From contig NZ_JAFMPM010000006.1 in assembly GCF_017349355.1 (NCBI RefSeq), forward strand, positions 1,178,001 through 1,242,000: a stretch of DNA of 64,000 bases, in the 5' to 3' direction. Each line of letters starts with the position of its first letter. The first letter of the stretch is position 1. A program made the translations under genes and the position numbers. The stretch is from Thiothrix fructosivorans (GTDB lineage Bacteria; Pseudomonadota; Gammaproteobacteria; Thiotrichales; Thiotrichaceae). Shown in pieces: positions 35,056 to 51,342 of this stretch. Under the pieces are notes generated by a model. It was not told the origin of the DNA and did no database searches. It saw only the letters and a list, made by a program, of their open reading frames with translations.

Positions 35056-35616
35056 TTAGCAAACATCACTCTCGCAAGGGACATCTTTTTTGTCTTTTGC
35101 GGAGGCTTGTGCACTTTTGTCAGCACGTAAGTAGTTTTGCAAGACGCTCGCGGTCACAGCGCCCATGTGCGTGCCCGCAATCTCACCTTCTGGGTTAACC
35201 ACGAAAGTCGTTGGAACGCCATACAGCAGACCGAGTGCAAACATGGTGCTGTCTTGGGTAGGAATGACCGGATAGGTGATTTTTTTCTGCGCAACAAATT
35301 CTTTCAGCTCGGCAGCCGGGGTTTCGCCCGCTTCCATACCTAGCACGACCAATTTGTCTTTGAAGCGTTTTGCCACGCTGTTGAGCGCTGGCAACTCTGT
35401 AATGCAAGGCCCGCAGTAGGTTGCCCAGTAATTGACAACAACCCATTTGCCTTTGTAGTCGGAAAACTTGTGACTTTTGCCATCAATGTCTTTGAAAGCG
35501 AAATTTTCTACTGGCGTCAGCTTGTCAGCCACCGCCTTCGCTTTTTCGACCGCACCAGCATTCACTGATGCAAACATCAGCACGGCAAGGGCAATCGCCC
35601 GCGTAATTAGTTTCAT
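35056..35616 (-). CDS. Periplasmic TlpA/ResA-like thioredoxin-fold protein
   Basis: A 186-residue protein with a signal peptide (MKLITRAIALAVLMFASVNA). It has a thioredoxin fold with the active site WATYCGPC, the redox CxxC of TlpA/ResA-type oxidoreductases, and the cis-Pro loop GVPTTFVVNPEG. Such proteins reduce or exchange disulfides in the periplasm, for example during cytochrome c maturation. The extra C-terminal tail is Lys/Ala-rich and ends with two further cysteines (PCESDVC). With several c-type cytochromes in this window a maturation role is plausible but not shown. Confidence 0.85.
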   Translation of the reverse strand: MKLITRAIALAVLMFASVNAGAVEKAKAVADKLTPVENFAFKDIDGKSHKFSDYKGKWVVVNYWATYCGPCITELPALNSVAKRFKDKLVVLGMEAGETPAAELKEFVAQKKITYPVIPTQDSTMFALGLLYGVPTTFVVNPEGEIAGTHMGAVTASVLQNYLRADKSAQASAKDKKDVPCESDVC

Positions 35617-35951: not shown

Positions 35952-38060
35952 TTATTTGCCTAAACGCACGTATTTACGTAGTGCGACCGCCCCTAATAAC
36001 ATGCTCAACAATAGCTGCGCCCACTGTGTCAGTGTCGGTACAGAAACACTCTTGACGGTTGGCGTAGTGGGCTTTTCCAGATAATCCGGTATGCCGTTAT
36101 TGTTTGCATCACCCTTTTCTGCTGAGGTAGGGATGCCGTCGTTGTCATCGTCTTTGTCCAAGGCGTTGATGACACCATCACCGTCGGTGTCGAGTGCTTT
36201 GCTGACCGTGGCACCGATTTCGTCTTTATCTAAAATGCCATCGCCGTCGGTGTCATTGCTATTGGGGTTTGTGCCCAAGGTTGCTTCTTCGGCGTCGGTT
36301 AGACCATCCGCATCGGTATCTTTCGGTGTTGTATCGGTGCTACACGTTGCTGGGCAGCCGTAATTACCGGCGTAATTATCGGTATCCATTGACCCCCAAC
36401 CCAAGTTGACGAGGCTATTACCCGGATTTGTTCCCACAGAATTGTTCGGCGCATCAGCCGGTTGATTGAATGCATCGGTGGCGTTGTCAATCAAACTCAC
36501 TGATCCCAAACATGCGCCTTTGTTGGCAAAGCTGAACACTTCGATTTCTTTACCGGCTTGCCACAGCATGGCTTTGGCATTGCTGATTGCGGGGGTAAAG
36601 GAGAGGTAAGAAGCCGCCGCATCTTCTGTCGGGGCATGTACGCTGGAGTTATTGCTCCACGACAAGCCGGTAAAGGCTGATTGCACATCCGTTGGGGTGA
36701 AGGCAGCAGCATCTTTGCCGATGGGGGCTTTCAGAGTGACTTGCGCACTGGTCAGGCTATTCGGTGATGGTACGCTACTGGCGTACATGTAGACGTGGTA
36801 GCGTTGATCTGTACCACTCCAACCGATCCGATAGTAGGCTTTGTTGGCCTCCGGTGTTGCTGGTGGCTGCGTGCAGGTGTCAACCGTGGTTTCGACATTG
36901 ATCGTCAGATTGATGCTGGCTTCGGTTTGGTTGCCTGCGGCATCGGTAATCCGGTAAGTCAGCGTATCCGTGCCGGTGTAGCCTGCTGTGGGAATGAACA
37001 CAATCTTGTTGTTCACGACCGTGGCGGTACCATGCTTGGGCGCACCCACAACCGTCAGGGTAACGCTTTGTCCGGCGGGAATCGTGTCGTTTGCTAAGAC
37101 ATCCAGCGTCATACCGCTAGCGGTTGCTTGCACGTCGAAGTTGTCGGTTTGTGCGACCAATTCCGGTGGCGGCGTAACAGTCGTGAGCGTGACGCTGACT
37201 GTGCCCGTGCTTTTCGCACCATCTGGATCGGCGATGGTATAGGTGAAGGTGTCCGTGCCCGTGGCATCCGCTTTCGGAGTGTAAATCAGGCTATTACCGC
37301 TTTGCGTAATACTACCTTTGCTGCCTTGTGTGAAGCTGGCAATGACCAGTGTGTCGCCGTCGGCGTCACTATCGTTTTTCAGCACGTCGATCGTCACTGC
37401 TTTACCCGCGCTGCTTTCTGCGGTGTCTTTGTTCGCAACGGGGGCGGTATTGATGACGGTTGTGCCGCCGCATTCTGCCGCTGCACCGTAATTACCGGAA
37501 TAGTCATTGTCGTCGGTAACACCCCAACCGGCGTTAGCAAACTGGTTGCCGGGGTTCGTGCCAGCGGAATTGTTCGGCGCATCGGGTGGTTGGTTGAACG
37601 GGTCGGTGTTGTTATTCATCAACGCGACACTGCCCATGCAAGGCCCGGTGTTTTTGAAGCTGAACGCCTCTTGTTCCACACCTGCTTTGAACGCAAAGGC
37701 ACGGACATCAATCGGCATGAAACTGAACGACAGATAGTCAATTGCTTTGTCTTCACTAGGGCCAAAGACTTCTGAACTCAGTGACCACGTAGTGCCCGCT
37801 TTCGGTTTGATGTCCGTGACCGTGAATTTGCTTGTACCTGTCGCATGAGGCACACGCAAGGTCACTTGCCCGGTCATGCTTAAATCAGGATTAGGTGCAG
37901 TGGTGGGGCGCATATACACATGGTAACGGCTATCTGCGTTATCCCACGCCACTCGGTATTCCACACTGCCCGCAACCCCCGCAAATGCTGTATGAGCAGC
38001 CGGTAGCAGTACCAGCAACGCTACACCCCTTGAAACAGCTTGTCTGATCGATTTTTTCAT
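35952..38060 (-). CDS. Exported module A protein with cadherin-like, TSP3 and IPTL-CTERM parts
   Basis: A 702-residue protein with signal peptide (LLVLLPAAHTAFA). Parts in order: module A (about 30-197: RYHVYMRP, DYLSFSF, TNPGNQFANAGWG, GNYG), two cadherin-like or Big_9 units with NDSDADGDTL and NGTDTF-like motifs (about 207-390), a second module A (about 398-575), a short thrombospondin type 3-like Ca-binding stretch (DTDADGLTDAEE, DTDGDGVINALD; about 580-665), and the tail VPTLTQWAQLLLSMLLGAVA plus basic residues. The tail is the IPTL-CTERM sorting signal, so the protein is probably processed and kept at the surface. Last gene of the paralogous cluster. Confidence 0.8.
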   Translation of the reverse strand: MKKSIRQAVSRGVALLVLLPAAHTAFAGVAGSVEYRVAWDNADSRYHVYMRPTTAPNPDLSMTGQVTLRVPHATGTSKFTVTDIKPKAGTTWSLSSEVFGPSEDKAIDYLSFSFMPIDVRAFAFKAGVEQEAFSFKNTGPCMGSVALMNNNTDPFNQPPDAPNNSAGTNPGNQFANAGWGVTDDNDYSGNYGAAAECGGTTVINTAPVANKDTAESSAGKAVTIDVLKNDSDADGDTLVIASFTQGSKGSITQSGNSLIYTPKADATGTDTFTYTIADPDGAKSTGTVSVTLTTVTPPPELVAQTDNFDVQATASGMTLDVLANDTIPAGQSVTLTVVGAPKHGTATVVNNKIVFIPTAGYTGTDTLTYRITDAAGNQTEASINLTINVETTVDTCTQPPATPEANKAYYRIGWSGTDQRYHVYMYASSVPSPNSLTSAQVTLKAPIGKDAAAFTPTDVQSAFTGLSWSNNSSVHAPTEDAAASYLSFTPAISNAKAMLWQAGKEIEVFSFANKGACLGSVSLIDNATDAFNQPADAPNNSVGTNPGNSLVNLGWGSMDTDNYAGNYGCPATCSTDTTPKDTDADGLTDAEEATLGTNPNSNDTDGDGILDKDEIGATVSKALDTDGDGVINALDKDDDNDGIPTSAEKGDANNNGIPDYLEKPTTPTVKSVSVPTLTQWAQLLLSMLLGAVALRKYVRLGK

Positions 38061-38105
38061 TGTTACCGACTCTCTATTTTGTTTTTGGATTAAAGTCTGT
38101 TGAGA

Positions 38106-40007
38106 TCAAGGCAATTGTTGCCTAATAATATAGTTTGCACTAAACGTGCTGTTCACCGGATGCAGCAATACATTACCCAGCAGCAAGTCAACGTCATTGG
38201 ATGGGCCTGCAAAAATGCTCAATCCATCCATATTCGTATCCGTTGCTTGATAGCCGCTCAATTTGTAGTTGGTGGTGTAAACGCCATTATCCCCCGCCAA
38301 CAACACATTGCTGAGTATTGAACCCGCATCATTGCTTGGCCCTTGCGCAATCAAGAAACCATCTGCATTAGCATTGCCTGCCCACAATAACGCTTGCTCA
38401 CCGGACACTGTTCGCGCATGACTACCGTAAGTTGGCGTGGTTGCTCGGCTGAAATCCACCGTGTTGGGCGTATTGCCCAACGCGATAGGTGCTGCGCTCA
38501 TTGCATCCAAATGGTTGCGGTGATGTACCGATACGTAGTACTTACCCGGTGTTACACCATCGAGCATGAACGTCGTGCTACCAGTTTGCGCGTCCATTAT
38601 GTCACCGTCTCGCTGAACCAAACCTGTCACTTCAGCTATGCGTAAGGTTGGGTTATTGGCATCATGCAGCACGAGTTGTACCCAATCGACCGGTGCATCG
38701 TGCCCACTGGTATCCAGCAGCGTACTAGCCACCTGTTGACTACCGGCATGGGGGAGGGTGCTTGTCTTGTAAGGTGCGGTGCTTGGCAGCAATTTTTTGG
38801 TACGCAAGGTATCACGCATCAGTTTCGTTTGGGTGTCATACGCCCCTTGCAACACCACACGGGCTTGCAGATTAATTACTGGTGTGTTGCATAACGCGGG
38901 GCAGCCGTAATTACCGGCGTAATTATTGGTATCTGAACTACCCCAACCGAGGTTAGCAAACTGGTTGCCGGGATTGGTATCCATTGAATTCGGAATAATG
39001 TTGAAAGGATCACTGGCATTATTCATCAGCGCGACCGCCCCTAAACACGCGCCACTGTTGGCAAAACTAAACACTTCCAGTGCTTTACCGTCTTGCCACT
39101 GGAAGCCTTTTGGATTGCTGGTATTCATAGTGAATGACAGGTAATCAGCGGTTGTGTCTTCCTTGGGCGCATTGATACGGGAGCTTTCTGTCCACGTAAT
39201 GCCGCTTACGGCAGACGTAAGATTGCTCACTTTGAAGCTATCCGTACCACTAGCGTGTGGCATTTTGAGCGTAACCTGACTGGTTAAACTCATATTGGGG
39301 GTAGGCATACTACCGGGGTGCATATAAACATGGTAGCGCTGATCGGTTTTATCCCAGTTGACGCGGTAATATACGCTGTTCGGCACGGGGGCAGGCGGTG
39401 CGGTAGCACAATCCATTGGACAACTTGCCGCCTCGCCGGTATTGCCGAGATAATCGTTGTCATCACTCGAACCCCAACCTGCGTTAGCAAATTGGTTGTT
39501 AGGGTTCGTATTGGTCGAGTTTTTAGGATTGTTGGGTGGCTGGTTAAACGGGTCGGTGGCATTATCCATCAACGCCACAGTACCAATACAAGGGCCTGAA
39601 TTTTTGAAGCTAAACGCTTCCTGTTCTTCACCGGCTTTAAACGCAAAGGCTTTTGCATCCAGCGGGGTGAAGCCAAACGATAAGTAATCAAACGTTGGGT
39701 TTTCGATGGGTGCAGTCACTTGTGACCCTAGCGCCCACGTTGTACCGGGTTTGGATTGCAGATCGGTAATATGAAATTGACTCGTACCTGTAACGTGTGG
39801 AACACGTAGCGTCACTTGTGCGGTGAGGCTTAAATCAGGGCTAGGTGTGCTGCTGGCACGCAGGAAAACGCGGTAACGTGCTGCATCAGCATCCCACGCG
39901 ATGCGGTAAGTCACGCCGCCATCCGCAGCCCATGCCGCCGTACTGATCTGTATCAGTAGCAGACAAGCGAGGGTGGATAGTCGTGTGGTTAAGGCGTTTA
40001 CACGCAT
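38106..40007 (-). CDS. Exported protein with two module A copies and C-terminal module B
   Basis: A 633-residue protein with a signal peptide (LACLLLIQISTAAWA). Two copies of module A (about 27-195 and 210-375) each contain RY(R/H)V(F/Y)(L/M), DYLSF, FSF.N.G.C(I/L)G.VALM and TNP.NQFAN(A/L)GWG. The C-terminal 255 residues are module B: QGAYDTQTKLMRDTLR, APVDWVQL, GLVQRDGDIMDA, YYVSVHHRNHL, LLWAGNANADG and LLLGNVLLHPVNSTFSANYI. The ADG/MDG spacing in the last part recalls dockerin-like calcium sites. No enzyme motif. It lies 45 bases from the next cluster gene, probably co-transcribed. Confidence 0.8.
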   Translation of the reverse strand: MRVNALTTRLSTLACLLLIQISTAAWAADGGVTYRIAWDADAARYRVFLRASSTPSPDLSLTAQVTLRVPHVTGTSQFHITDLQSKPGTTWALGSQVTAPIENPTFDYLSFGFTPLDAKAFAFKAGEEQEAFSFKNSGPCIGTVALMDNATDPFNQPPNNPKNSTNTNPNNQFANAGWGSSDDNDYLGNTGEAASCPMDCATAPPAPVPNSVYYRVNWDKTDQRYHVYMHPGSMPTPNMSLTSQVTLKMPHASGTDSFKVSNLTSAVSGITWTESSRINAPKEDTTADYLSFTMNTSNPKGFQWQDGKALEVFSFANSGACLGAVALMNNASDPFNIIPNSMDTNPGNQFANLGWGSSDTNNYAGNYGCPALCNTPVINLQARVVLQGAYDTQTKLMRDTLRTKKLLPSTAPYKTSTLPHAGSQQVASTLLDTSGHDAPVDWVQLVLHDANNPTLRIAEVTGLVQRDGDIMDAQTGSTTFMLDGVTPGKYYVSVHHRNHLDAMSAAPIALGNTPNTVDFSRATTPTYGSHARTVSGEQALLWAGNANADGFLIAQGPSNDAGSILSNVLLAGDNGVYTTNYKLSGYQATDTNMDGLSIFAGPSNDVDLLLGNVLLHPVNSTFSANYIIRQQLP

Positions 40008-40044
40008 GATTATATCTTTATTCTAGGTTTGATTAAGTAGCCGA

Positions 40045-40062
40045 GGGCGGGAAAACCCGCCC
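40045..40062. repeat. GC-rich hairpin between two cluster genes
   Basis: GGGCGGG (40045-40051) pairs with CCCGCCC (40056-40062) around AAAA. It lies in the 86-base gap between the 1397-residue and 633-residue protein genes. No U-tract follows on either strand, so it may be an mRNA-stabilising element or processing site rather than a full terminator. Confidence 0.5.
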
Positions 40063-40093
40063 CCAAGCTGCGTCTCATCAAAGCAATCGCGGT

Positions 40094-43000
40094 TTAAGGC
40101 AATTGCTGATTGATGATGTAGTTTGCACTGAAGGTGCTGTTACCCGGATGCAACAGAACGTTACCCAGCAGCATGTTCACATCGTTAGATGGGCCTGCAA
40201 AGATGGTAATGCCGTCCATATTGATGTCGGTCGGTTGATAACCTGCTAAACGGTAGTTGGTACTGACCGACAGGTTGTCTTTCGCCAGCAGGACATCCCC
40301 AAGGATGACACCTGTGTCGTTAGACGGCCCGTTAGCAATCGCCCGCAAGTCCGTGTTAGCGTTACCTGCCCACAGCAGGGAAACCGTGCCACTGTTCGCA
40401 CTGATGCGCGAGTCTTTACCGTAAACCGTGGTGGTCGGTTTGGTGAAGTCCACGCTCGGCACGGTGTTCGCGGTAATGGCAACGGGTGCTGAGGTCATCA
40501 CGCCCAAATGGTTGCGGTGACGCACCGACACGTAGTAGTTACCCGGTAACAAACCTGTCAGCATCAAGGAGGTGCTGCCGTTGACATCCATAATGTCGCC
40601 ATCCCGCTGTACCAAGCCCGCAATGCGTGCTTTGATCGTTGCCGGTGTGGTGGCATCACGGATTTCAACCATTACCCAGTCCACTGGTGCATTGTTGCCG
40701 GTCGCCGCAAACACGGTAGCCGCTGCCGCTTCTGTACCAGCATATTTGATGCTGCCGATATTGTACGGTTGCTTCAGTGGCAGCAAACCTTTGGAGCGCA
40801 AGTCGTCTTGCATCAGTTTGCTGGTGCTGTTGTAAGCACCTTGCATCATTGCTTTGACTTGCACTTTGACGGCACTGACGGTGGTATCCAGATAGTCTGG
40901 TGTGCCATCCATGTCACCATCGGTCGCATCAGTAGGGCTACCATCGACGTTACCATCCGGTGTTTCATTCTTGGTCAGAATGCCGTCGCCGTCATCGTCA
41001 GCATCCATGTAGTCAGGAATGCCGTCTTTGTCGGAGTCGTCATCAGCCGGTGTGCCACCGTTGTAGTTTTCGTTCTTGGTCAGAATGCCGTCACCATCAT
41101 CGTCAGCATCAACCGCATTCGGTTTGCCATCGCCATCGGTGTCGAGTGGTTTGGTTGGGTCAGTGCCTACTTCCACTTTGTCGCCAATGCCGTCACCGTC
41201 AGAGTCAGGGTTCAAGGGGTTAGTGCCCGCTTTTTTCTCAACGCCATCCAACAGACCATCACCATCGGAGTCAGGGTTTTTCGGGTCAGTACCCAGCGTT
41301 TTTTCATCCGCATTGGTTACGCCGTCTTTGTCTGGGTCAGCCAGTGGACCATCGGTGCTGTCTTTATCCAGATAGTCAGGGATTTTGTCGCCATCGGTAT
41401 CCAGTGCATCAGTCGGTGCGCCGTCTTTGTTCGGGTCATTGCTTTCCGCAGCGGAAAGGATACCGTCACCGTCATCATCCGTGTCCAGATAGTCCGGGAT
41501 TTTGTCGCCGTCGGAATCGTCATCGGTCGGTGTACCCGCGTTGTAGTTCTCATTTTTGGTCAGAACGCCATCGTTGTCATCGTCCGTGTCCAACGCGTCA
41601 ATCTTGCCGTCTTTGTCGGTATCGATAGGCGTGGCTGGGTTTGCGCCGACTTCCACTTTGTCGCCGATACCGTCACCGTCCGTGTCAGTACTGAGTGGGT
41701 TCGTTCCGAGAGTTTTCTCTGTGCCATCTGGCAAACCGTCGCCGTCGGAGTCAGCTACTTTCGGGTCAGTGCCGAGGGTTTTTTCGTCCGCATTGGTCAG
41801 GCCGTCTTTGTCTGGGTCAGCCAAGGGACCATCGGTGTTATCCTTGTCCAAATAGTCCGGGATTTTGTCGCCGTCGGTATCCAGTGCATCAGCCGGTGCG
41901 CCGTCTTTGTTCGGGTCATTGCTTTCCGCAGCGGAAAGGATACCGTCACCGTCATCATCCGTGTCCAGATAGTCCGGGATTTTGTCGCCGTCGGAATCGT
42001 CATCGGTCGGTGTACCCGCGTTGTAGTTCTCATTTTTGGTCAGAACGCCATCGTTGTCATCGTCCGTGTCCAACGCGTCAATCTTGCCGTCTTTGTCGGA
42101 ATCAATCGGCGTGGCTGGGTTTGCGCCGACTTCTACTTTGTCACCGATGCCGTCGCCGTCGGAATCAGGATTCAGTGGGTTAGTGCCAGCGGTTTTTTCC
42201 ACGCCATCCAGCAAACCGTCACTGTCGGAGTCAGGGTTTTTCGGGTCAGTGCCGAGCGTTTTCTCATCCGCATTGGTTACGCCGTCTTTGTCCGGGTCAG
42301 CCAATGGACCGTCGGTGTCATCCTTGTCCAAATAGTCCGGGATTTTGTCGCCGTCGCTATCCAGTGCGTCCGTCGGTGCGCCATCTTTGTTCGGATCATT
42401 GCTTTCAACAGCAGAGAGTTTGCCGTCACCATCATCGTCGGTATCCAAGTAGTCTGGAATCTTGTCACCGTCGCTGTCGTCATCGGCAGGTGTACCGCCA
42501 TTGTAGTTTTCGTTCTTGGTGAGAACGCCGTCGTTATCGTCGTCCGTATCCAGTGCGTCGATTTTACCGTCTTTATCGGAATCAATCGGCGTAGCTGGGG
42601 TTGGACCCACTTCGATTTTGTCGCCGATGCCATCACCGTCAGAGTCAGGGTTTTTGGGGTCAGTACCGGCTTTTACCTCGTCTGCATTGGTCAGGCCGTC
42701 TTTATCGGAATCACCCAGCGGGCCGTCGGTGTTGTCCTTATCCAGATAGTCAGGAATTTTGTCGCCGTCGGTATCCAGTGCATCAGCAGGAGAACCGTCT
42801 TTATTCGGGTCATTGCTTTCTGCGGAAGAGAGGACGCCGTCGCCGTCATCGTCGTTGTCCAGATAGTTAGGTTTGCCATCAGCATCGGTATCGTCGTTGC
42901 CAAGGATGCCATCGGCGTTGAGGTCTTCGTTTTTGGTCAGAATGCCGTCGCCGTCATCGTCAACGTCTTGGAAGTCAGGCTTGCCGTCTTTGTCCAAGTC

Positions 43001-44287
43001 TTGTTTGACTACCGGTGTGCCACCGTTATCGGGGTCGAATGCGTCATCCAGACCGTCTTTATCGGTGTCTTTGCCCAGCGGTGCCACGTCAGCTTTGCCG
43101 TCGCCGTTGGCATCATTGCCTTCGATGCTATCAGCAACACCATCGCCATCACTGTCGGTATCCATGCTGTCAGGGATTTTGTCACCATCAGTATCGGTAA
43201 CACCATTGCCTTCCGCTGTGTCGATAATGCCATCGTTGTCGTCGTCGATGTCGTCAGCGTCTTTCACGCCGTCTTTGTCGGTGTCAGGGCGGCTGTCGCT
43301 ATTGTCTAAGTAGTCTGGAGTACCGTCACCGTCGGTGTCTTTCGCATCGGTGGGTGCGCCGTCCACGTTAGGGTCGTTGTTTTCATTTTTGGAAAGGATG
43401 CCGTCACCGTCATCATCGGTGTCAAGATAGTTGGGTATGGTGTCGCCATCGGTATCATCGTCGGTTGGTAAACCACCGTTGTAGTTTTCGTTTTTGGTTA
43501 GAACGCCATCACCGTCATCATCATTGTCCAGTGCGTTGATTTTGCCATCGCCATCCGTGTCAGGAGAGATACCTAATGGGGCTTCTACACCGTCACTGAT
43601 ACCGTCGCCGTCGGAGTCGGGGTTCAACGGGTTAGTGCCAATGGCTTTTTCTACGCCATCTTTCAAACCATCCGCGTCGCTGTCTAAACTGTCTTTACAA
43701 TCAGCGGCGGTGCCATAGTTGGCAAGGTAGTTGTTTTCATCCGAACCACCCCAACCCAAGTTGGTGAATTGGTTGCCGGGGTTTGTACCTGCCGAGTTAT
43801 TGCTGCCGTTGAGGAGCGGTTGGTTGAACGGGTCTGTTTGGTTGTCGATCAGGGCGACCGAGCCAAGGCATTTGCCAGTATTGTTGAAGTTGAAGACTTC
43901 TTGTTCTACGCCTGCTTTCCATTGGAACGCATCCGACTTGATCATGTTCAAGCTGAAAGATAGGTAGTCGACGGCAGTATCTTCGATGGGTGCATCCACC
44001 CGTGAGTCATTTGACCAGATGGTGTTGGTGACAGTGATTTTAGGGTCGTTGACCGAAAACGCATCCGCACCCGTGGCGTGTGGAACGCGGATGGTGAACT
44101 GCCCCGTCATGCTCATGTCTTTCGGAGTAGGGGTGGCGTTAGGCTTCATGAAAACATGATAGCGGTCGTCTTTGGTGTCCCAGCGGATGCTGTACTCCAA
44201 GGTTTGCGCTGCCCAAGCACTATTACCTGCCAGCAGCAGTACCGAGGCGCTCAGACCAAGGTATTTGCTCAGTTTTTTGGAATCCAT
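40094..44287 (-). CDS. Giant exported protein: module A, long TSP3 Ca-binding array, module B
   Basis: A 1397-residue very acidic protein with a signal peptide (LSASVLLLAGNSAWA). Module A spans about 25-197. Residues about 197-1132 are a thrombospondin type 3-like array of repeated D.DGDKIPDYLD, DDDGDG(I/V)L and GTDP(K)NPDSDGDG motifs, which should bind many calcium ions and form a rod. Module B forms the last 260 residues and ends STFSANYIINQQLP. The array contains near-identical DNA repeats with a 480-base period. A stalk that presents module A from a C-terminal anchoring or interaction module is a reasonable picture, but it is inference. It follows the 212-residue single-module gene by 77 bases. 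Confidence 0.82.
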   Translation of the reverse strand: MDSKKLSKYLGLSASVLLLAGNSAWAAQTLEYSIRWDTKDDRYHVFMKPNATPTPKDMSMTGQFTIRVPHATGADAFSVNDPKITVTNTIWSNDSRVDAPIEDTAVDYLSFSLNMIKSDAFQWKAGVEQEVFNFNNTGKCLGSVALIDNQTDPFNQPLLNGSNNSAGTNPGNQFTNLGWGGSDENNYLANYGTAADCKDSLDSDADGLKDGVEKAIGTNPLNPDSDGDGISDGVEAPLGISPDTDGDGKINALDNDDDGDGVLTKNENYNGGLPTDDDTDGDTIPNYLDTDDDGDGILSKNENNDPNVDGAPTDAKDTDGDGTPDYLDNSDSRPDTDKDGVKDADDIDDDNDGIIDTAEGNGVTDTDGDKIPDSMDTDSDGDGVADSIEGNDANGDGKADVAPLGKDTDKDGLDDAFDPDNGGTPVVKQDLDKDGKPDFQDVDDDGDGILTKNEDLNADGILGNDDTDADGKPNYLDNDDDGDGVLSSAESNDPNKDGSPADALDTDGDKIPDYLDKDNTDGPLGDSDKDGLTNADEVKAGTDPKNPDSDGDGIGDKIEVGPTPATPIDSDKDGKIDALDTDDDNDGVLTKNENYNGGTPADDDSDGDKIPDYLDTDDDGDGKLSAVESNDPNKDGAPTDALDSDGDKIPDYLDKDDTDGPLADPDKDGVTNADEKTLGTDPKNPDSDSDGLLDGVEKTAGTNPLNPDSDGDGIGDKVEVGANPATPIDSDKDGKIDALDTDDDNDGVLTKNENYNAGTPTDDDSDGDKIPDYLDTDDDGDGILSAAESNDPNKDGAPADALDTDGDKIPDYLDKDNTDGPLADPDKDGLTNADEKTLGTDPKVADSDGDGLPDGTEKTLGTNPLSTDTDGDGIGDKVEVGANPATPIDTDKDGKIDALDTDDDNDGVLTKNENYNAGTPTDDDSDGDKIPDYLDTDDDGDGILSAAESNDPNKDGAPTDALDTDGDKIPDYLDKDSTDGPLADPDKDGVTNADEKTLGTDPKNPDSDGDGLLDGVEKKAGTNPLNPDSDGDGIGDKVEVGTDPTKPLDTDGDGKPNAVDADDDGDGILTKNENYNGGTPADDDSDKDGIPDYMDADDDGDGILTKNETPDGNVDGSPTDATDGDMDGTPDYLDTTVSAVKVQVKAMMQGAYNSTSKLMQDDLRSKGLLPLKQPYNIGSIKYAGTEAAAATVFAATGNNAPVDWVMVEIRDATTPATIKARIAGLVQRDGDIMDVNGSTSLMLTGLLPGNYYVSVRHRNHLGVMTSAPVAITANTVPSVDFTKPTTTVYGKDSRISANSGTVSLLWAGNANTDLRAIANGPSNDTGVILGDVLLAKDNLSVSTNYRLAGYQPTDINMDGITIFAGPSNDVNMLLGNVLLHPGNSTFSANYIINQQLP
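41280..42720. repeat. 480-base tandem repeat inside the TSP3-array gene
   Basis: Three copies begin near 41317, 41797 and 42277, spaced exactly 480 bases. Copies one and two are almost identical over long stretches (compare 41400-41620 with 41880-42100), and copy three is more diverged. Each encodes 160 residues of the calcium-binding array. Recent duplication or gene conversion explains the similarity; such repeats allow length variation by recombination. Confidence 0.85.
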
Positions 44288-44325
44288 AGTTTGAATCTCT
44301 CGCTCATTTTTATAATTGATTGCGT

Positions 44326-44357
44326 AAGAACCCCACGGCGGGAGCTTAGGGGCTCTT
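44326..44357 (-). repeat. Hairpin after the single-module A gene
   Basis: On the reverse strand AAGAGCCCC pairs with GGGGTTCTT (44326-44357, one G-T pair), seven bases after the stop of the 212-residue protein gene. There is no clear U-tract. It may act as an attenuator or protect the upstream mRNA, so that the small protein is made in greater amount than the giant one downstream. Confidence 0.45.
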
Positions 44358-44364
44358 GACCGTA

Positions 44365-45003
44365 TTACTTTTTGCAGGTAATCGTGTCGCCGTAGTTGCC
44401 TGCGTAATGGTTGTCGCTAACCGCACCCCAACCTAAGTTGGTGAACTGGTTGCCGGGGTTTGTATTGGCAGAGTTGGGGGATGTGTTAAACGCATCATCT
44501 TTAGCCATCAGGGTAACGCCATCCACACAGCCACCTTCGTTTTGGAAGCTGAAAATGACTTGTTCTTTGCCTTCTTCCCAGTTGTAGTTGCGGGCGCTTG
44601 CACCTTGCAAACCAACGAACGAGAAGGAGATGTAGTCACTTTTGGCATCTTCTTTAGGTGCATCAACGCGTGAGGCTTCTACCCAGTTAGAGCCTTCAAC
44701 GGTGCTGCTCAAGCCAGTCACTTTAAAGCTGCTGTCATGCGGTGCTTTCAGGGTGACTTGCCCAGTCAAACTGATGTCTGGCTTAGGGGTCGCGGAAGGT
44801 TTCATGATGACTTGGTACGTTTTACCGTCTTCTGCGAGTGCCAGTTTGTAAGACAGAATTTGTGTCGCGGCTGCGGCGGCGGCTTCTGCTTTAGCCATGT
44901 CGGTTGCGGCGGTGCTTTTCGCCATTGCGCTACCAGCGGTAATGGCTAGGGCAACTGCGCCTGCTAACGTGATGAAATGGCGGATGGATTGGTTCGTTTT
45001 CAT
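44365..45003 (-). CDS. Small exported single-module A protein
   Basis: A 212-residue protein with signal peptide (ITLAGAVALAITAGSAMA), a short Ala-rich spacer and then a single module A: LSYKLALAEDGKTYQVIMKP, LTGQVTLKAP, DYISFSFVG, EQVIFSFQNEGGC, and NTNPGNQFTNLGWG followed by HYAGNYG and a final Cys. This is the minimal form of the module shared by the next three genes and defines its borders well. AGGAGACAATAA before the ATG is a strong ribosome site. It is probably the first gene of a four-gene transcription unit running to 35952. Function unknown; a secreted or surface structural subunit seems possible. Confidence 0.78.
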   Translation of the reverse strand: MKTNQSIRHFITLAGAVALAITAGSAMAKSTAATDMAKAEAAAAAATQILSYKLALAEDGKTYQVIMKPSATPKPDISLTGQVTLKAPHDSSFKVTGLSSTVEGSNWVEASRVDAPKEDAKSDYISFSFVGLQGASARNYNWEEGKEQVIFSFQNEGGCVDGVTLMAKDDAFNTSPNSANTNPGNQFTNLGWGAVSDNHYAGNYGDTITCKK

Positions 45004-45069: not shown

Positions 45070-45107
45070 AAAATTTTTCGCTGATAAAAGGCAAAGCCGC
45101 GTTTATC
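45070..45107 (-). terminator. Probable terminator of the 1822-residue protein gene
   Basis: On the reverse strand GATAAA and GGC pair with GCC and TTTATC (45083-45107), with small internal loops, followed by the T-rich stretch AAAAATTTTATTTT. It lies 24 bases after the stop at 45132 and separates this gene from the module A operon. Confidence 0.5.
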
Positions 45108-45131
45108 ACGACTCTGCCGTTCATCATTGAT

Positions 45132-48100
45132 TTACTTTGGCAACGCACCATTGATAATGTAATTGGCAGCAAACGCACTATTCAAAGGGTGCAACAACAC
45201 ATTGCCCAGTAGCAAATTGATGTCGTTGCTGGGACCCGAATAGATGCTTGTACCATCCAGATTTAAGTCAGTAACGGTATATCCATTCAAACGGAAATTA
45301 CTGTTACTTAAGGCATTATCAGGGTGTGTGAGGATTGCGCCTAACACTACATTACTGTCATTGAGGGGACCGGTCGCAATGATTTTGTCGGAGATATTGG
45401 CATCCCCTGCCCACAGCAGCGCCGTATTCCCGACGATTAGACGTGCCTCTTTACCCAAGGTGTCGGTCATGGTTTGGGTGAAATCCACCACTGTCGGAGC
45501 GGATGACAAGGTGAGTGGTGTCGCGGTCGTGACGGCTAAATGGTTACGGTGGCGCAGCGTGACGTAATACTGACCCGCTGGGATTTGTTCCAAGCTCAGT
45601 GTGTTGCTGCCCGTTTTAGCATCCACCACATCGCCATCGCGCTGTAGCAATCCTGCGATGGCGCTGATACGGGTTTTGGGTGTAGTGGCATCGCGCAACT
45701 CGACCAGTACCCAGTCCACGACAGCATCATTACCCGATGCTGCCAAGAGCGCAGGGAGAGCCGTTTCTGTGTCCGTGTAAGCAAATGGTGTACCGCTTGC
45801 GCCATACGGCTGGATGCTAGGAATCAGCCCCAAACTACGCAAACTGTCACGCATCATGCCATCTTTGCTGACGTATGCGCCTTGTAGGAAGCCGCGTACT
45901 TGCAGTTTGATGTCCGCCGCATTCGTCACCGCAATGGTTAAGGCTTGCGTATCGCTCGTACCCGCTTTGTCCTTCACCGTGACCGTTACTTGATACTGAT
46001 TATCGCTGTTGGCATCGGTGGGGGTTTCAAAGTCGGGTAAGGTTTTGAAGGTCAGCTTGCCTGTTACGGGGTCAATCACCAACAAGCTCGCATCATCACC
46101 ACCGGTAATGCTGTAAGTCAGCGTGTCATCTTCCGCATCGGTCGCTTGTACGCTGGTCACATTCAGTGCATTTTCTGTCACCGTGACAGTAGCCGTATCG
46201 CCAGCCCCGTCGGAGGTAATGGTCGGTGCGGTGTTTTCCTGCACATTCGTCACCGTGACTTTCAAGGCTTGCGTGTCGATGTGATCGACCTCCGTATTAT
46301 CGGTCACAGCAACGATAACTTCATACACGTTGTCAGCATTCGCATCGCTAGGTTGTTCAAAGTCCGGTGCGGTTTTGAAGCTCAGTTCGCCGCTTACGGG
46401 ATCAATCACAAATAAGCCAGCATCTTTTCCACCTTGAATCGAGAACGTCAGGGTATCAGCGGTGTCGGGGTCAGCCGCTGCAATAGCTGTGACCAATGTT
46501 TGGTTTTCCGGCGTTTGCATAGCGGTACTGATGATATTGGGTGGGCTGGATTCCACCACATTGGTGACCACAATAACTTCCACTTGTTCGGTACACAGGT
46601 TGCCGCTGTCACAGACTTGCGTCATGAGGAGGTAAGCATTGTCGCCATTACTGTCTTGCGGTGCTTCGTAGTCCGGTGGGGCTTTGAAGCTGATTGCACC
46701 AGTGATTGGGTCAATGTTGAACAGGGCTGCGTCAAACATCGGCTGTAGGTTGTAAGTCAGACCGCTGGTGGCTTCGGTATCGCTGTCATCGCTGGATTGC
46801 ACATCCAAGGCAATGCCAGTGCCATTTTCCGCAAAGGTGACGTTGTTGCTTGAGGTAATCAGTGGCGCATCATTCACGGGTGTAACGATGATTGTCACGA
46901 CCGCATTGCTTGTGCCACCTTGCGTATCGTTGACGGCATAGGTGAAGTTGTCTGTCCCACTAAAACCAGCGGCAGGTGTATACGTATATGTGCCATCTGC
47001 CAACAACGTGACTGTACCGTGGCTAGGTGCGGTGACGGGTGTGGTATTGACCGTGAGGGTATCGCCGTCAATATCCGTGTCGTTGGTTAGCACGGTATTA
47101 CCGTTGAGAATGGTATTTTCAGTAACGCTGGCGCTGTCATCCAATGCCGTAGGTGCGTCATTGTTGGGGCTGATGGTTAGGGTAACGCTGGCGGTATCCG
47201 TGCCACCGTTGCCGTCACTGATTTCATAGGTGAAACTGTCTGTCCCATTGAAATCCTTCGCAGGTGTGTAGGTGTACGTGCCATCCGCTTTGAGTGCCAA
47301 TGTGCCGTGTGTTGGCGCAAGCACTGGCGTAGTGTTAACGGTCAGCGTGTCTGCGTCGATGTCCGTGTCATTGCTTAACACGGTTGTGCCATTCAATACG
47401 GTATCTTCGGCAGTGGTTGCGGCATCATCCGTCGCACTCGGCGCGTCATTAGCGGGACCGACGGTGAGTGTCACCTTAGCGGTTGCTGTTCCACCGTTGC
47501 CGTCACTGATTTCGTAGGTAAAACTGTCCGTGCCGTTATAGCTAGTGGTTGGTGTGTAAGTATACGTGCCATCGGCTTTGAGTGTTACTGTGCCATGAGT
47601 TGGTTGGGTGACAGGCGTGGTGTTCACCGTTAATGCATCGGACTCAGGATCAGAGTCATTGCTTAACACGGTGCTGCCGTTCAGTACGGTATTTTCTAAG
47701 GTATTAGCCGTATCGTCTAACGCGGTCGGTGCATCATTGCTGGCGGTAATGGTCAGCGTGACGACAGCCGTTGCTGTGCCACCCTTACCATCGCTGATTT
47801 CGTAGGTGAAGCTATCTGTGCCGTTGACGTTTGTCGCAGGCGTGTAAACGTAAGTACCGTCAGCTTTGAGGTTGAGCGTGCCATGGGTGGGGGCAACTAC
47901 AGGTGTGGTGTTGACCGTCAAGGTATCGCCGTCAATATCGGTGTCGTTGATTAATACTGTTGTGCCGTTTAACACCGTATCTTCTGTCGTACTACCCGTG
48001 TCAGCGTTGGCGACGGGGAGATCATTCACTGCTGCAATGGTAATGCTTACAACGGCAGTTGCTGTGCCGCCGTTGCCATCGGACACTTCGTAAGTGAAAC

Positions 48101-50600
48101 TATCCGTGCCGTTGTAGCCATTCGCAGGGGTGTAGGTGTAAGTCCCATCCGCGTTGAGCGTCAATGTGCCGTGCGTTGGTGCAACCACAGGAGTGGTATT
48201 GACCGTTAACGTATCGCCTTGGTCATCACTGTCGTTCAGTAACACCGTTGTGCCATTTAGGATGGTATCTTCCGTGGTGCTGGTGGTATCCGCATTGGCA
48301 AGCGGTGGCGTATTGACGACTAATGCTTTAGCACATACCACGAACTCAATGCCATCCGCACCCGCACCTTCTACGCCTGTACCTGCTAAGTCCAAACTCA
48401 CACTGTCGTAAGTGCCGTTGATTTGAATGCCGCCCATCGCGGTATAGCGCGTGCTATCTGTGCCTGATTCGGAGCTGCTTTCACCCCAGACGAGAGCCTC
48501 ATTCGGGGTACGTTGCAGGGCACTGCCACTTACTTCAAAGTGGTTTGTGCCGCCGACTTTGGTAAAGGTTGCCGCTGCATTCGCAGCGTTCGGGGTAATG
48601 CGAGCCGCATTACTCAATTGCTGAGGAACAGCCACACTATTGCCACCATAACCCCCTAAACGGTCGATATAAATCACGGGGTCTTTGACCGGAGCGCTGA
48701 AGCTGAAGGTCAATTGACCTGTTTTGCCATCTGTATCCGCATTAGCATTACGCCCATCATCAGGGCTGGTATCCCAGAAAAAGATCGTGCTCAAAGAAGG
48801 AATGCCGTTGATGTCGGGATTGCCAAATTGACCCGCAGTATTCATGGCATCGTTGGGGGCAAATGTCCATTTCGCGCCATTCGGTGCGCTGGTGGTGGCG
48901 GTAATGGTTAAACCTTCTGATGTGTCGCTTTGATAACCGCCTCCACCAGCAGTCCATGCTTTGGTGCTGCCACTTGCGCTACAAGAAGGGGGTGAGGGTT
49001 GTGTCGGTACGTTGGGGGTATCGGCTAACGTAATTTGATAGTCTTCCACCTCACCATTGCTGGCGGGGGCGGTAGGATCGGCTGCGGCTACATCACTGGA
49101 AAAACGGAAGCGGGCGTAAGTTGTGCCTACCGCTGCGCCTAAGGGTACGTTCATGACCATTGCTAAGGTTTGATTGGTGCCAGCCAACCCGTTAGCAACC
49201 AGTTCATTGGGATTGTTACCGAATGTGCCATCGCGATCCCAGTCAAACCAAGCGTACAACTTACCTGTGCCGACCACGGGAACGTGTAAGGTGACATTGC
49301 TTTCCACTTCAAAAGTACTGCCTTGTAAACCCGTGGTTAGCCCTGCATTGGTAAAAACCGACCCTTCGTCAGCCGTGCCGGTAGTTTCGTCAAGGCTTGC
49401 GGTAGCGCTGGGTTGTGCAGCGGTTTCGCTGTCAGGTGCGGTCGCGCCTAAATAAGTGCCTGCCACGATGGTATGATTCGGTGTGCCATAAGTGGCGGGT
49501 GCATCACTGTAATCCTCATTGGCAACCACGTTGTCGGAGGAAATTGTGAAAGATGGTGCCCATGCACCCCATGCCAGCACCGAACTGTCGGCGGCGGATT
49601 GCAGTGTAAAATTGCTGGCAACCCCGTTACGGAATTGCGCGGAAGCGCTCATGCCGCTGGGTTCGGTGGTGTTCCACGTCGGCTCTTCGTTGTCGTAACG
49701 CCCCCCGCCGTTGTTGGTGCCAACGGATTGTGCGAGTGTATACCCCGCCATCGTGTTAAAACCTCCAGCGGTGCTGGGTTGTCCTAATGCGGAGAAACCC
49801 ACTACCAACAAACCGTCAGCCGCATCATTCGGGGCTTGCCCTGCATCAAATGCCGTTGCGCCGATGGTAAAGTCACCAGCAAGACCTGTGCCGAGTGAGC
49901 TGAGTTGCGGTACGGATGAGCGTACAATACCATCAACCGTTTGCATGGCATTGTTGAAGACAAACGCCGTTAGAACAGCATCATCGCCAGCGCTCTTGGG
50001 GTCGACAACATCCGGTAGTGTGATAGCTATATCGCCAGAAGCCGCGCCGCCCAGCAGGGTATTGATCTCGGATTCAAACAGGGCAATGTGGTAGCTCTCT
50101 TGGCTGAACAGAGTTGAGTTGGGAATAGCAACGCCTGCTCCATCCTTCAGAGAGGATTCCATCACACTAAAGCGTAAATCCCCACTGGGTGAGCCACCGA
50201 CGGTGAGCGCATTCTTTTTATCAATTGAGCCACCCGGCCCAGTCAGACGTGCGGTAATCTGGTAGGTGGCAGCGACTGGGCGAGCGAAGTTATCACTTAA
50301 GCCTGCGCCAGTGCTGGTTAAATTACATACGTCACTGCCTGCGTCACAGTGGTCACGCTCGAAGCCTGCCGCAATGAATAAAATACGGTTATTGCCTGCC
50401 GGAATGGTGAAGTTGGCAATGCTAGGTTTACCTGCTGCACCCGCCCCCGCTGCGCTGCTGGAAGTGCTGGTGAGTAGATTGACGGTTGCTGCATTGGCTA
50501 GCAATGGCATACCGAAGCCTGTTGCCATGAGTAAACACAGTAAGCGTCGTATCCAGTGGTGTCGAACAGGGTTGGCTTTTTTAAGGCTAAAAAATTTCAT
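45132..50600 (-). CDS. Giant exported cadherin-like repeat protein ending in module B
   Basis: An 1822-residue protein with an N-terminal signal (LLCLLMATGFGMPLLANA). The first 350 residues form an unassigned globular region. A GEVEDYQITL motif follows near 520, as in secreted proteins with Ig-like adhesive parts. Another domain precedes five tandem cadherin-like/Big_9 units of about 96 residues (about 765-1242; ED/ENTVLNG, NDSD/NDTD, GTYTYTP, GTDSFTYE). Next are three cadherin repeats (about 1243-1556; LFVIDPVSGELSFK) and module B (about 1563-1822; LLLGNVLLHPLNSAFAANYI). Its length and calcium-type repeats suggest an adhesin or extracellular filament protein. It lacks module A but shares module B with two downstream proteins. 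Confidence 0.82.
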   Translation of the reverse strand: MKFFSLKKANPVRHHWIRRLLCLLMATGFGMPLLANAATVNLLTSTSSSAAGAGAAGKPSIANFTIPAGNNRILFIAAGFERDHCDAGSDVCNLTSTGAGLSDNFARPVAATYQITARLTGPGGSIDKKNALTVGGSPSGDLRFSVMESSLKDGAGVAIPNSTLFSQESYHIALFESEINTLLGGAASGDIAITLPDVVDPKSAGDDAVLTAFVFNNAMQTVDGIVRSSVPQLSSLGTGLAGDFTIGATAFDAGQAPNDAADGLLVVGFSALGQPSTAGGFNTMAGYTLAQSVGTNNGGGRYDNEEPTWNTTEPSGMSASAQFRNGVASNFTLQSAADSSVLAWGAWAPSFTISSDNVVANEDYSDAPATYGTPNHTIVAGTYLGATAPDSETAAQPSATASLDETTGTADEGSVFTNAGLTTGLQGSTFEVESNVTLHVPVVGTGKLYAWFDWDRDGTFGNNPNELVANGLAGTNQTLAMVMNVPLGAAVGTTYARFRFSSDVAAADPTAPASNGEVEDYQITLADTPNVPTQPSPPSCSASGSTKAWTAGGGGYQSDTSEGLTITATTSAPNGAKWTFAPNDAMNTAGQFGNPDINGIPSLSTIFFWDTSPDDGRNANADTDGKTGQLTFSFSAPVKDPVIYIDRLGGYGGNSVAVPQQLSNAARITPNAANAAATFTKVGGTNHFEVSGSALQRTPNEALVWGESSSESGTDSTRYTAMGGIQINGTYDSVSLDLAGTGVEGAGADGIEFVVCAKALVVNTPPLANADTTSTTEDTILNGTTVLLNDSDDQGDTLTVNTTPVVAPTHGTLTLNADGTYTYTPANGYNGTDSFTYEVSDGNGGTATAVVSITIAAVNDLPVANADTGSTTEDTVLNGTTVLINDTDIDGDTLTVNTTPVVAPTHGTLNLKADGTYVYTPATNVNGTDSFTYEISDGKGGTATAVVTLTITASNDAPTALDDTANTLENTVLNGSTVLSNDSDPESDALTVNTTPVTQPTHGTVTLKADGTYTYTPTTSYNGTDSFTYEISDGNGGTATAKVTLTVGPANDAPSATDDAATTAEDTVLNGTTVLSNDTDIDADTLTVNTTPVLAPTHGTLALKADGTYTYTPAKDFNGTDSFTYEISDGNGGTDTASVTLTISPNNDAPTALDDSASVTENTILNGNTVLTNDTDIDGDTLTVNTTPVTAPSHGTVTLLADGTYTYTPAAGFSGTDNFTYAVNDTQGGTSNAVVTIIVTPVNDAPLITSSNNVTFAENGTGIALDVQSSDDSDTEATSGLTYNLQPMFDAALFNIDPITGAISFKAPPDYEAPQDSNGDNAYLLMTQVCDSGNLCTEQVEVIVVTNVVESSPPNIISTAMQTPENQTLVTAIAAADPDTADTLTFSIQGGKDAGLFVIDPVSGELSFKTAPDFEQPSDANADNVYEVIVAVTDNTEVDHIDTQALKVTVTNVQENTAPTITSDGAGDTATVTVTENALNVTSVQATDAEDDTLTYSITGGDDASLLVIDPVTGKLTFKTLPDFETPTDANSDNQYQVTVTVKDKAGTSDTQALTIAVTNAADIKLQVRGFLQGAYVSKDGMMRDSLRSLGLIPSIQPYGASGTPFAYTDTETALPALLAASGNDAVVDWVLVELRDATTPKTRISAIAGLLQRDGDVVDAKTGSNTLSLEQIPAGQYYVTLRHRNHLAVTTATPLTLSSAPTVVDFTQTMTDTLGKEARLIVGNTALLWAGDANISDKIIATGPLNDSNVVLGAILTHPDNALSNSNFRLNGYTVTDLNLDGTSIYSGPSNDINLLLGNVLLHPLNSAFAANYIINGALPK
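46870..48310. repeat. Tandem array of five cadherin-like units
   Basis: Five units of roughly 290 bases encode the motif series TEDTVLNG, NDTDIDGDTL, TVNTTPV, HGTL.LKADGTYTYTP and GTDSFTYEISDGNGG. The units are strongly alike at the DNA level, indicating repeated unequal duplication within the gene at 45132-50600. Confidence 0.85.
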
Positions 50601-50730: not shown

Positions 50731-50805
50731 GCTAGGAGGTGGCGAGCGGCACTTTCAGTGTGGTGTGTTACAATCGCTGCATTCAACCAACACGAACGGA
50801 TAACG

Positions 50806-51342
50806 ATGGACACACAAGCATCGGAGCAGGAAGAACAGCCGAAAAAGCGCCCGTGGTTACGCTGGTTAGTCGAAGGTGTCATTATCCTTGCCATTATTTT
50901 CGGCGGGCGGGCATGGCAACAACGCACGATGTTAGTCGGCGAAGCCCCCGATTTTGAACGCTCGACCCTGAGTGGCGAAACCCTCCGCCTCGATAATTAC
51001 CGAGGTAAACCCGTGCTGCTACACTTTTGGGCGAGCTGGTGTCCGTTGTGTGAATTGGAGCAGGGCAGTATTACCGCACTTGCCAAGGATTGGAAAGTAA
51101 TTACCGTGGCGTTTCAATCGGGTGGAAGCGAAGAAACCCAGCGCTACATGGAGCGCGAGGGCATTACTGATTGGGTCACGATTGTCGATGAAGACGGTTC
51201 ATTAGCCACGCAATACGGCATTAAGGGCGTACCGAGCAATTACGTGTTGGATGAAGAAGGCATGATTCGCTTTCGTGAAGTCGGGCTGAGTTCCGGTTGG
51301 GGATTACGGCTGCGCTTGTGGTTAGCCGATTGGCTGGTGTGA
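50806..51342 (+). CDS. Membrane-anchored thioredoxin-like (TlpA/ScsD-type) protein
   Basis: A 178-residue protein with a cytoplasmic acidic start (MDTQASEQEEQPKKRP), one transmembrane helix (VEGVIILAIIFGGRA) and a periplasmic thioredoxin-fold domain. The active site is HFWASWCPLC and the cis-Pro loop is GVPSNYVLDEEG. The C-terminus (GLSSGWGLRLRLWLADW) resembles ScsD-type protein disulfide oxidoreductases. I start at the ATG at 50806 because the upstream codons are not typical and the charged N-terminus fits the membrane topology. It is convergent with, and directly adjacent to, a TauE/SafE-type protein that may supply electrons in the manner of DsbD/CcdA. That link is speculative. Confidence 0.85.
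   Translation: MDTQASEQEEQPKKRPWLRWLVEGVIILAIIFGGRAWQQRTMLVGEAPDFERSTLSGETLRLDNYRGKPVLLHFWASWCPLCELEQGSITALAKDWKVITVAFQSGGSEETQRYMEREGITDWVTIVDEDGSLATQYGIKGVPSNYVLDEEGMIRFREVGLSSGWGLRLRLWLADWLV

Follow-up and report, generated by a model that had tools for sequence, protein, structure and literature searches.

A candidate cohesin/dockerin-like docking kit for large surface proteins in Thiothrix fructosivorans

We analyzed a stretch of 64,000 nucleotides from Thiothrix fructosivorans (Gammaproteobacteria, Thiotrichaceae; contig NZ_JAFMPM010000006.1, positions 1,178,001 to 1,242,000), here called the window, in which five adjacent minus-strand genes run from 50600 to 35952 with intergenic gaps of 45 to 128 bases. 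The encoded proteins are built around two modules, A and B. At the level of sequence, B occurs once per protein and nearly always at the C terminus, with A placed before it. The tail of B, B2, is related to dockerins; A is never found without B in the order Thiotrichales, A and B genes are adjacent in two phyla, and in three selected Bacteroidota gene blocks cohesin, the known dockerin receptor, stands where A would be expected. We consider it somewhat probable that these genes specify a kit of the cohesin/dockerin type by which large surface proteins dock, with A as the receptor for B2. A sequence-only reading had described four of the genes as a tandem family of A proteins; all four open reading frames are present on the minus strand as it gave them, and it found the A half of the system while overlooking the fifth gene (45132-50600, 1822 residues) and module B. 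Since dockerin-like B travels with A, we read the block as a docking system rather than as a rod made of A only.

Module A belongs to no named family

Module A, about 165 residues long, occurs in six copies in four adjacent genes, as had been proposed. The copies align over 176 columns, 41 of them invariant, and five are 45-64% identical to the first. With the 212-residue protein as lone query against its own genome, the five other window copies are recovered at expectation (E) values of 1.5e-30 to 2.6e-45, so their relationship is not due to chance. Two further copies lie outside the window (E of 1e-44 and 1.6e-42, in frames of 2854 and 259 residues), bringing the genome total to eight, and one relative carries four copies in a single frame of 1030 residues, the most found. 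Two cysteines are kept in 66/69 and 61/69 aligned copies. The sequence strings once listed as constant hold as consensus but not as invariants, being replaced by TYQVIMKP in the 212-residue protein, TGQFTI in the 1397-residue protein, and TNPNNQF in the first copy of the 633-residue protein. Likewise, the rule that each copy follows a signal peptide or a previous copy fails for the second copy of the 702-residue protein, which is preceded by two Big_9 domains.

A Pfam scan of 69 A members gave nothing credible (best 0.0014, in one member), an NCBIfam scan of the five window proteins gave no match over module A, and a PDB search with two module A profiles returned no credible relative. The profile check for a characterized family therefore came back empty, and the description of A as an unassigned secreted module stands, with N termini of the window proteins that resemble signal peptides by eye. 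Novelty of both modules is judged here from family libraries and literature searches. Apart from the main block, a second single-A protein of about 250 residues with a helical, cysteine-bearing tail is encoded at L144:5759-6535 (G000 C8) and L028:1641-2387, and frames of similar size occur in further genomes of the genus.

Module B ends in a dockerin-like tail

Module B spans about 256 residues, is C-terminal in the 1822-, 1397-, and 633-residue proteins, and is present in nine copies in the genome. It consists of B1 (about residues 1-165), which is Ig-like at most (weak Pfam matches in some members; Y_Y_Y in 4/34, best 2.8e-5), and the B2 tail of about 85 residues. The window copies match no Pfam family, and a PDB search for B was also empty. 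Within B2 there are two units, AGNAN-D...GPSND and TD-N-M-D-G...GPSND, with loops of the D-x-N-x-D-G type, giving the two tandem D-x-[ND]-x-D-G units looked for in a dockerin. When the halves of B2 were compared by hhalign, the probability was 98.6 and the score 67, while none of 100 column-shuffled controls scored above 18.3; judged from this alignment, B2 is an internal duplication of one unit. The second loop is the stricter, with D, D, and G kept in 34/34, 33/34, and 34/34 members, respectively, while the first is looser, with D at its fifth position in 23/34.

The connection to dockerins runs through Bacteroidota. Among 395 sampled genomes of this phylum, B is found in 52, most matches spanning the B1 part only. 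In the loci that were read, what comes after B1 is mostly a C-terminal tail with a dockerin-like sequence as judged by eye, for example GDVNADGVIDLFDQ...GYLIWDTNLDGIITTRDLN. Window-type B2 aligns with these tails over both loops (hhalign probability 93.4, P of 2.4e-7; score of 41 versus at most 17.3 in 200 column shuffles), whereas a control comparison with module A gave 0.1. A profile of 16 such tails finds nine PDB sequences at an E below 0.001, dockerins first. The top matches are the scaffoldin adaptors 4uyq and 4uyp at 5e-5 for the whole chain (the better of the two stretches of 4uyq alone reaches 0.023), and the others below 0.001 are two small "endoglucanase A" sequences, "Dockerin from ScaH," "Dockerin type 1," a carbohydrate-binding protein, and two serine-protease chains. 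The X-dockerin 2b59 follows at 0.019, and 1ohz was also matched. Pfam Dockerin_1 is listed for 5/8 tails submitted from the Bacteroidota set, one of them above the cut-off (23.9 versus 22.9 bits). As B2 aligns with Bacteroidota tails that match solved dockerins, and not with dockerins directly, its homology is established through relatives, and B2 is best described from these comparisons as a diverged dockerin relative.

B is nearly always terminal, and A proteins carry several kinds of tail

Architectures were taken from 146 distinct frames that contain A or B and a stop codon within the locus, with identical 120-residue ends merged; the set includes orthologues, N-terminally cut frames, and fragments. 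Full B is present in 56 frames, never more than once per frame, and in 54 of them at most 18 residues separate its end from the C terminus; the other two have 37 and 172 residues beyond it. In 23/23 frames with both modules, A lies upstream of B. Sorted by eye on their ends, the 57 A-only frames comprise 16 with IPTL-type tails, 21 single-A proteins of 194-235 residues, 9 Bacteroidota proteins with type IX-like tails, 4 Bacteroidota proteins with C-x-P...K-rich tails, 2 with helical cysteine tails, and 5 fragments. A single-A gene directly follows a B protein gene in 11/27 loci. Both A-only Emticicia proteins submitted to Pfam have a confirmed type IX tail (27.6 and 63.3 bits; cut-off, 27). 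For the IPTL-CTERM tail of the 702-residue protein, the Pfam score is 26.7 bits against a cut-off of 20.8, and NCBIfam TIGR04174 falls just below its own (19.4 versus 20.5). The CxPxxCxP...K-rich end is seen by eye on four Bacteroidota A proteins that have no standard type IX domain (L032:4568-5932, L145:7295-12094, L145:12085-14496, and L146:6240-7514) and is possibly an undescribed sorting tail.

Besides the 1822-residue protein, the genome encodes five B-only proteins outside the window. Four of these were scanned and contain SdrD/GEVED/cadherin domains (4181 residues), cadherin/DUF11 domains (1309 residues), an F5/8 type C domain (452 residues), and no recognized domain (456 residues). The 452-residue frame (L142:4894-6249, G000 C8) has a signal peptide-like start, then B, then the F5/8 type C domain; among the B copies of this genome it is the only one away from the C terminus.

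A and B occur together

Module A was detected in 16/16 genomes of the genus. Named records with A relatives are mostly Thiothrix, Thiofilum, Thiolinea, and uncultured Thiotrichaceae, together with Flavobacterium, Emticicia, and a Bacteroidetes metagenome-assembled genome (MAG). Across 63 genomes of the order Thiotrichales, A is present in 25 and B in 27, and all 25 A genomes carry B, although as close kin they are not independent events. Completeness is 83% and 74% for the two genomes with B alone.

In the Bacteroidota, A is found in 4/52 B genomes (G057, G287, G310, and G396) and in 0/28 genomes without B; the A model used contains modules of the four positive genomes, which leaves the 48 and 28 misses as the only independent results. 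An earlier A search of the Bacteroidota sample, in which at most nine candidates per genome were scored, gave A in at least two genomes. None of the four A genomes has a Pfam cohesin at an E of ≤0.01. When loci around an A match were read, B was in the same block in 6/8 (L032, L034, L146, L147, L148, and L149; two pairs among these share one genome each) and absent from the block at L033 and L145. Around B matches (L150-L157), A was seen in 2/8 loci, namely L152 and, as a distant copy, L150.

Cohesin stands in the place of A in three blocks

Pfam cohesin is present in 134/395 Bacteroidota genomes at an E of ≤0.01, with 112 over the cut-off. It occurs in 35/52 B genomes versus 99/343 others (Fisher 1.7e-7, kinship not controlled). 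Three blocks were chosen for reading since their B and cohesin matches stood close; the other shared genomes were left unread. In G139, a 787-residue protein has the order cohesin-cohesin-B1-tail (cohesin, 84.3 bits), the tail being dockerin-like by eye with Dockerin_1 not listed, and a 540-residue protein joins cohesin to a type IX tail (30.2 and 35.7 bits). The former equals in design the A-A-B protein of 633 residues in the window. G414 likewise has a 270-residue cohesin protein with a type IX tail (33.8 and 30.7 bits) next to a 386-residue B1-dockerin protein (Dockerin_1 at 21.1 bits, below the cut-off), whose N terminus is cohesin-like by eye only. In G075, a 257-residue protein with cohesin and a type IX-like tail (21.9 and 15.6 bits, both below the cut-off) neighbors a 450-residue cohesin-B1-tail protein (26.0 bits). 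It is mainly because cohesin takes the place of A in these three blocks that A is read as the receptor of the B2 tail. In architecture and co-occurrence, A resembles a receptor-like module of anchor and adaptor proteins that is co-inherited with dockerin-type proteins.

How the docking kit would work

In the proposed kit, B would be the plug, with B1 as an Ig-like spacer and B2 as a diverged dockerin whose two loops are of the calcium-binding type. An X module precedes some dockerins, and B1 is comparable. A would be the socket, and the A-B2 contact may depend on calcium. The 702-residue protein, with two A modules and an IPTL-CTERM tail, would keep sockets at the envelope, a role that in Bacteroidota would fall to anchored A proteins with a type IX tail. 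Proteins of the A-A-B and A-rod-B types would be adaptors, each inserted into one socket while presenting further ones, and could in this way form chains or branches. The B-only proteins, that is, the 1822-residue protein and the five elsewhere, would be cargo on display, and the 212-residue protein would be a cap or a soluble socket. These proteins are predicted to reach the outer surface, and the pairing of holder and held protein is likewise a prediction. The cargo would more probably serve attachment than degradation, because the scanned B-only proteins, together with the Ig/cadherin rod of the 1822-residue one, resemble adhesins more than enzymes.

Points against the docking kit and alternative explanations

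Several observations weigh against the proposed kit. Regarding the tail, neither the window B2 nor the Emticicia tail has a direct Pfam Dockerin match, a profile of window-type B2 tails finds no PDB chain, and the 16-tail search that returned dockerins also gave a serine protease (3.9e-4) and calmodulin (0.01). Type I dockerins have a 12-residue loop with Asp at position 12, whereas the acidic residue of the B2 loop is at position 16 (D-x-N-x-D-G...GPxND), four later. The 452-residue frame has 172 residues after B. In distribution, shared ancestry inflates the perfect count in Thiotrichales. In 13/52 Bacteroidota B genomes there is neither A nor Pfam cohesin, so that either unrecognized receptors exist or B needs none. 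GxxND-like tails without A occur in G075, G094, G152, and G154; cohesin is present in G075 and G154 but not in G094 and G152, and tail type and receptor are therefore not one-to-one. For anchoring, no exosortase was recognized in the T. fructosivorans genome by a PF09721 search (the XrtH-specific model was not searched), and on this result exosortase was set aside as the sorter of the IPTL tail. PF09721 exosortase is present in 2/16 genus genomes, this one not among them. The IPTL tail may be a plain anchor or the target of an unrecognized processing enzyme. IPTL-CTERM tails are also seen by eye in L009, L012, L014, L022, and L027, despite the rarity of exosortase.

Finally, A shows no sequence or profile homology to cohesin (PF00963). 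By hhalign, the probability is 0.18 for a broad A profile and 0.74 for a Bacteroidota A profile, while unrelated Ig controls (Big_9 and B1) give 0.16-0.95. The scores equal those of controls, and no homology was detected, also with the Bacteroidota A members. One form of the docking kit nevertheless keeps the homologous fold, with A as a hyper-divergent true cohesin and the whole as a non-cellulosomal cohesin/dockerin pair. The topology of cohesin is a jelly roll. A occupies the same position as cohesin, both within gene blocks and behind the signal peptide, has a similar size, and by eye shows a similar run of strand-like segments; given the profile results, we regard this form as possible but doubtful. 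We would put forward only tentatively, as a rather unlikely extension, that A is a dockerin receptor of a second, unrelated fold with a co-evolved dockerin variant, that the kit is transferable between Bacteroidota (type IX) and Thiotrichaceae (IPTL-CTERM), and that in filamentous sulfur bacteria it assembles by itself into a network on the surface.

Alternatively, A and B may not bind each other at all: A would be adhesive or carbohydrate binding, and B would be either a C-terminal domain that derives from dockerin and has a different partner, or a signal for attachment or secretion. Their joint travel would then follow from both being parts of one class of giant surface proteins. This accommodates the missing sequence link between A and any protein-binding domain, the nearly constant C-terminal position of B, which is that of a sorting signal, and the frequency of B without A in Bacteroidota (48/52 B genomes), including the genomes that also lack cohesin. 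It is harder to reconcile with the coincidence of B and the known dockerin receptor, with the three blocks in which cohesin takes the position of A, and with the absence of any Thiotrichales genome that has A without B. Furthermore, B is found alongside type IX partners as well as in Thiotrichaceae, a distribution not easily accounted for by one sorting signal. On balance, we find this explanation unlikely, though worth keeping in view beside the docking kit.

The sequence-only reading had seen a surface-structure system, perhaps a sheath, holdfast, or matrix. The broad part agrees with the calcium-type TSP3 and Ig-like rods and the IPTL-CTERM tail, while the specific claim is not supported. 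Rods of A polymerizing with A are improbable: the tandem A copies, the TSP3 and Ig-like rods, and the presence of A throughout a genus whose members form rosettes and, apart from one named exception, also mucous sheaths (in passages of PMC8570282 and PMC9319827) fit them, but window proteins have one or two A modules, the minimal protein one, and the richest relative four; Flavobacterium and Emticicia have A+B gene sets as well; and the sheath of a Thiothrix species is described as polysaccharide in a passage of PMC9319827. A text search of PMC9455678 for "sheath" found no mention.

Gene block and neighborhood

The coordinates of the block are collected in Table 1. The terminator-like hairpin after the 1822-residue gene means that the last four genes may share a separate transcript.

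Table 1. Genes, modules, and other features of the block, in positions of the window
Feature	Position	Strand	Basis
1822-residue protein: GEVED, Big_9/cadherin-like rod, C-terminal module B, no A	45132..50600	-	Open reading frame and domain scan
Module B of 1822-residue protein	45132..45905	-	
Terminator-like hairpin, 12 pairs then TTTT, between 1822- and 212-residue genes	45090..45118	-	Consensus match only
212-residue single-A protein; module A at about 44368-44856	44365..45003	-	
1397-residue protein: A, TSP3 rod, B	40094..44287	-	
Module A of 1397-residue protein	43694..44200	-	
Module B of 1397-residue protein	40097..40864	-	
633-residue protein: A, A, B	38106..40007	-	
First module A of 633-residue protein	39417..39914	-	
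Second module A of 633-residue protein	38886..39377	-	
Module B of 633-residue protein: B1, then dockerin-like tail B2 at about 38109-38393	38109..38867	-	
702-residue protein: A, two Big_9, A, TSP3, IPTL-CTERM tail	35952..38060	-	
First module A of 702-residue protein	37467..37967	-	
Second module A of 702-residue protein	36339..36839	-	
IPTL-CTERM tail of 702-residue protein, residues 673-695	35976..36044	-	Pfam

The genes surE, pcm, and nlpD and a TlpA-like gene adjoin the block in the same 13/27 loci, which indicates that the block was inherited in place in Thiotrichaceae. Two thioredoxin-like genes flank it in the window (35056-35616 and 50758-51342), the first of them kept beside the block in 13/27 loci. 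A role of the TlpA-like thioredoxin as a disulfide helper for the cysteines of A was considered and rejected; since surE, pcm, and nlpD are equally conserved in those 13 loci, the pattern reflects conservation of the neighborhood and is no evidence for such a helper. Within the TSP3 rod of the 1397-residue gene, a 480-bp unit is repeated 3.1 times (41165-42649, 85% matches), and the length of the gene might vary here. In "Ca. Thiothrix singaporensis" (MAG; L010:4198-13806), several block genes are in pieces, through assembly error or decay.

Relation to known systems and meaning

B resembles the dockerins of the type I cohesin/dockerin and X-dockerin pairs of cellulosomes (PF00963 and PF00404) in having C-terminal, duplicated D-x-N-x-D-G loops behind an Ig-like module, and the likeness extends to a receptor module present in several copies and on anchors and to the classes of anchor, adaptor, and cargo. 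Unlike in the cellulosome, no cohesin homology is detectable in the receptor A, the loop carries its acidic residue four positions later with a GPxND signature, the scanned cargo has adhesin-like domains rather than cellulases, and the hosts are sulfur-oxidizing gammaproteobacteria. Noncellulosomal cohesins and dockerins were reportedly described by Peer et al. in 2009. In the Cloacimonadota scaffoldin, as presented in part of PMC8542988, the cohesin/dockerin logic is likewise found outside classical cellulosomes, but this and other noncellulosomal systems have recognizable cohesins and enzymes, whereas here A replaces cohesin and the Thiotrichaceae anchor tail is IPTL-CTERM. The Ig/cadherin rod of the 1822-residue protein is of the kind seen in large repeat adhesins (BapA/Bap/LapF NF045619, tandem-95 NF012211, and cadherin-like proteins), but the protein ends in B, and its NF045619 score, 143.3 of 180 bits, is below the cut-off. 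With the Myxococcus TSP3 proteins CglD, MtsC, and MtsD (NCBIfam), the 1397-residue protein shares the TSP3 repeat only, far below equivalog cut-offs. Literature searches on Thiothrix with exosortase or dockerin found no paper in the library searched.

Cohesin-dockerin is a workhorse of protein engineering. If the docking kit holds, the pair, its receptor having no sequence link to cohesin, would possibly be an orthogonal fastener, and families A and B1, which have no model in the libraries searched, would gain a meaning. Passages of PMC6030884 place cohesin-dockerin among the strongest receptor-ligand pairs reported and describe cohesins as widespread in prokaryotes. The data suggest a novel form of a familiar molecular snap-fastener that joins long surface proteins to one another and to the cell. 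If true, this would provide a testable molecular hypothesis for Thiothrix surface biology, including rosettes, filaments, and sludge bulking.

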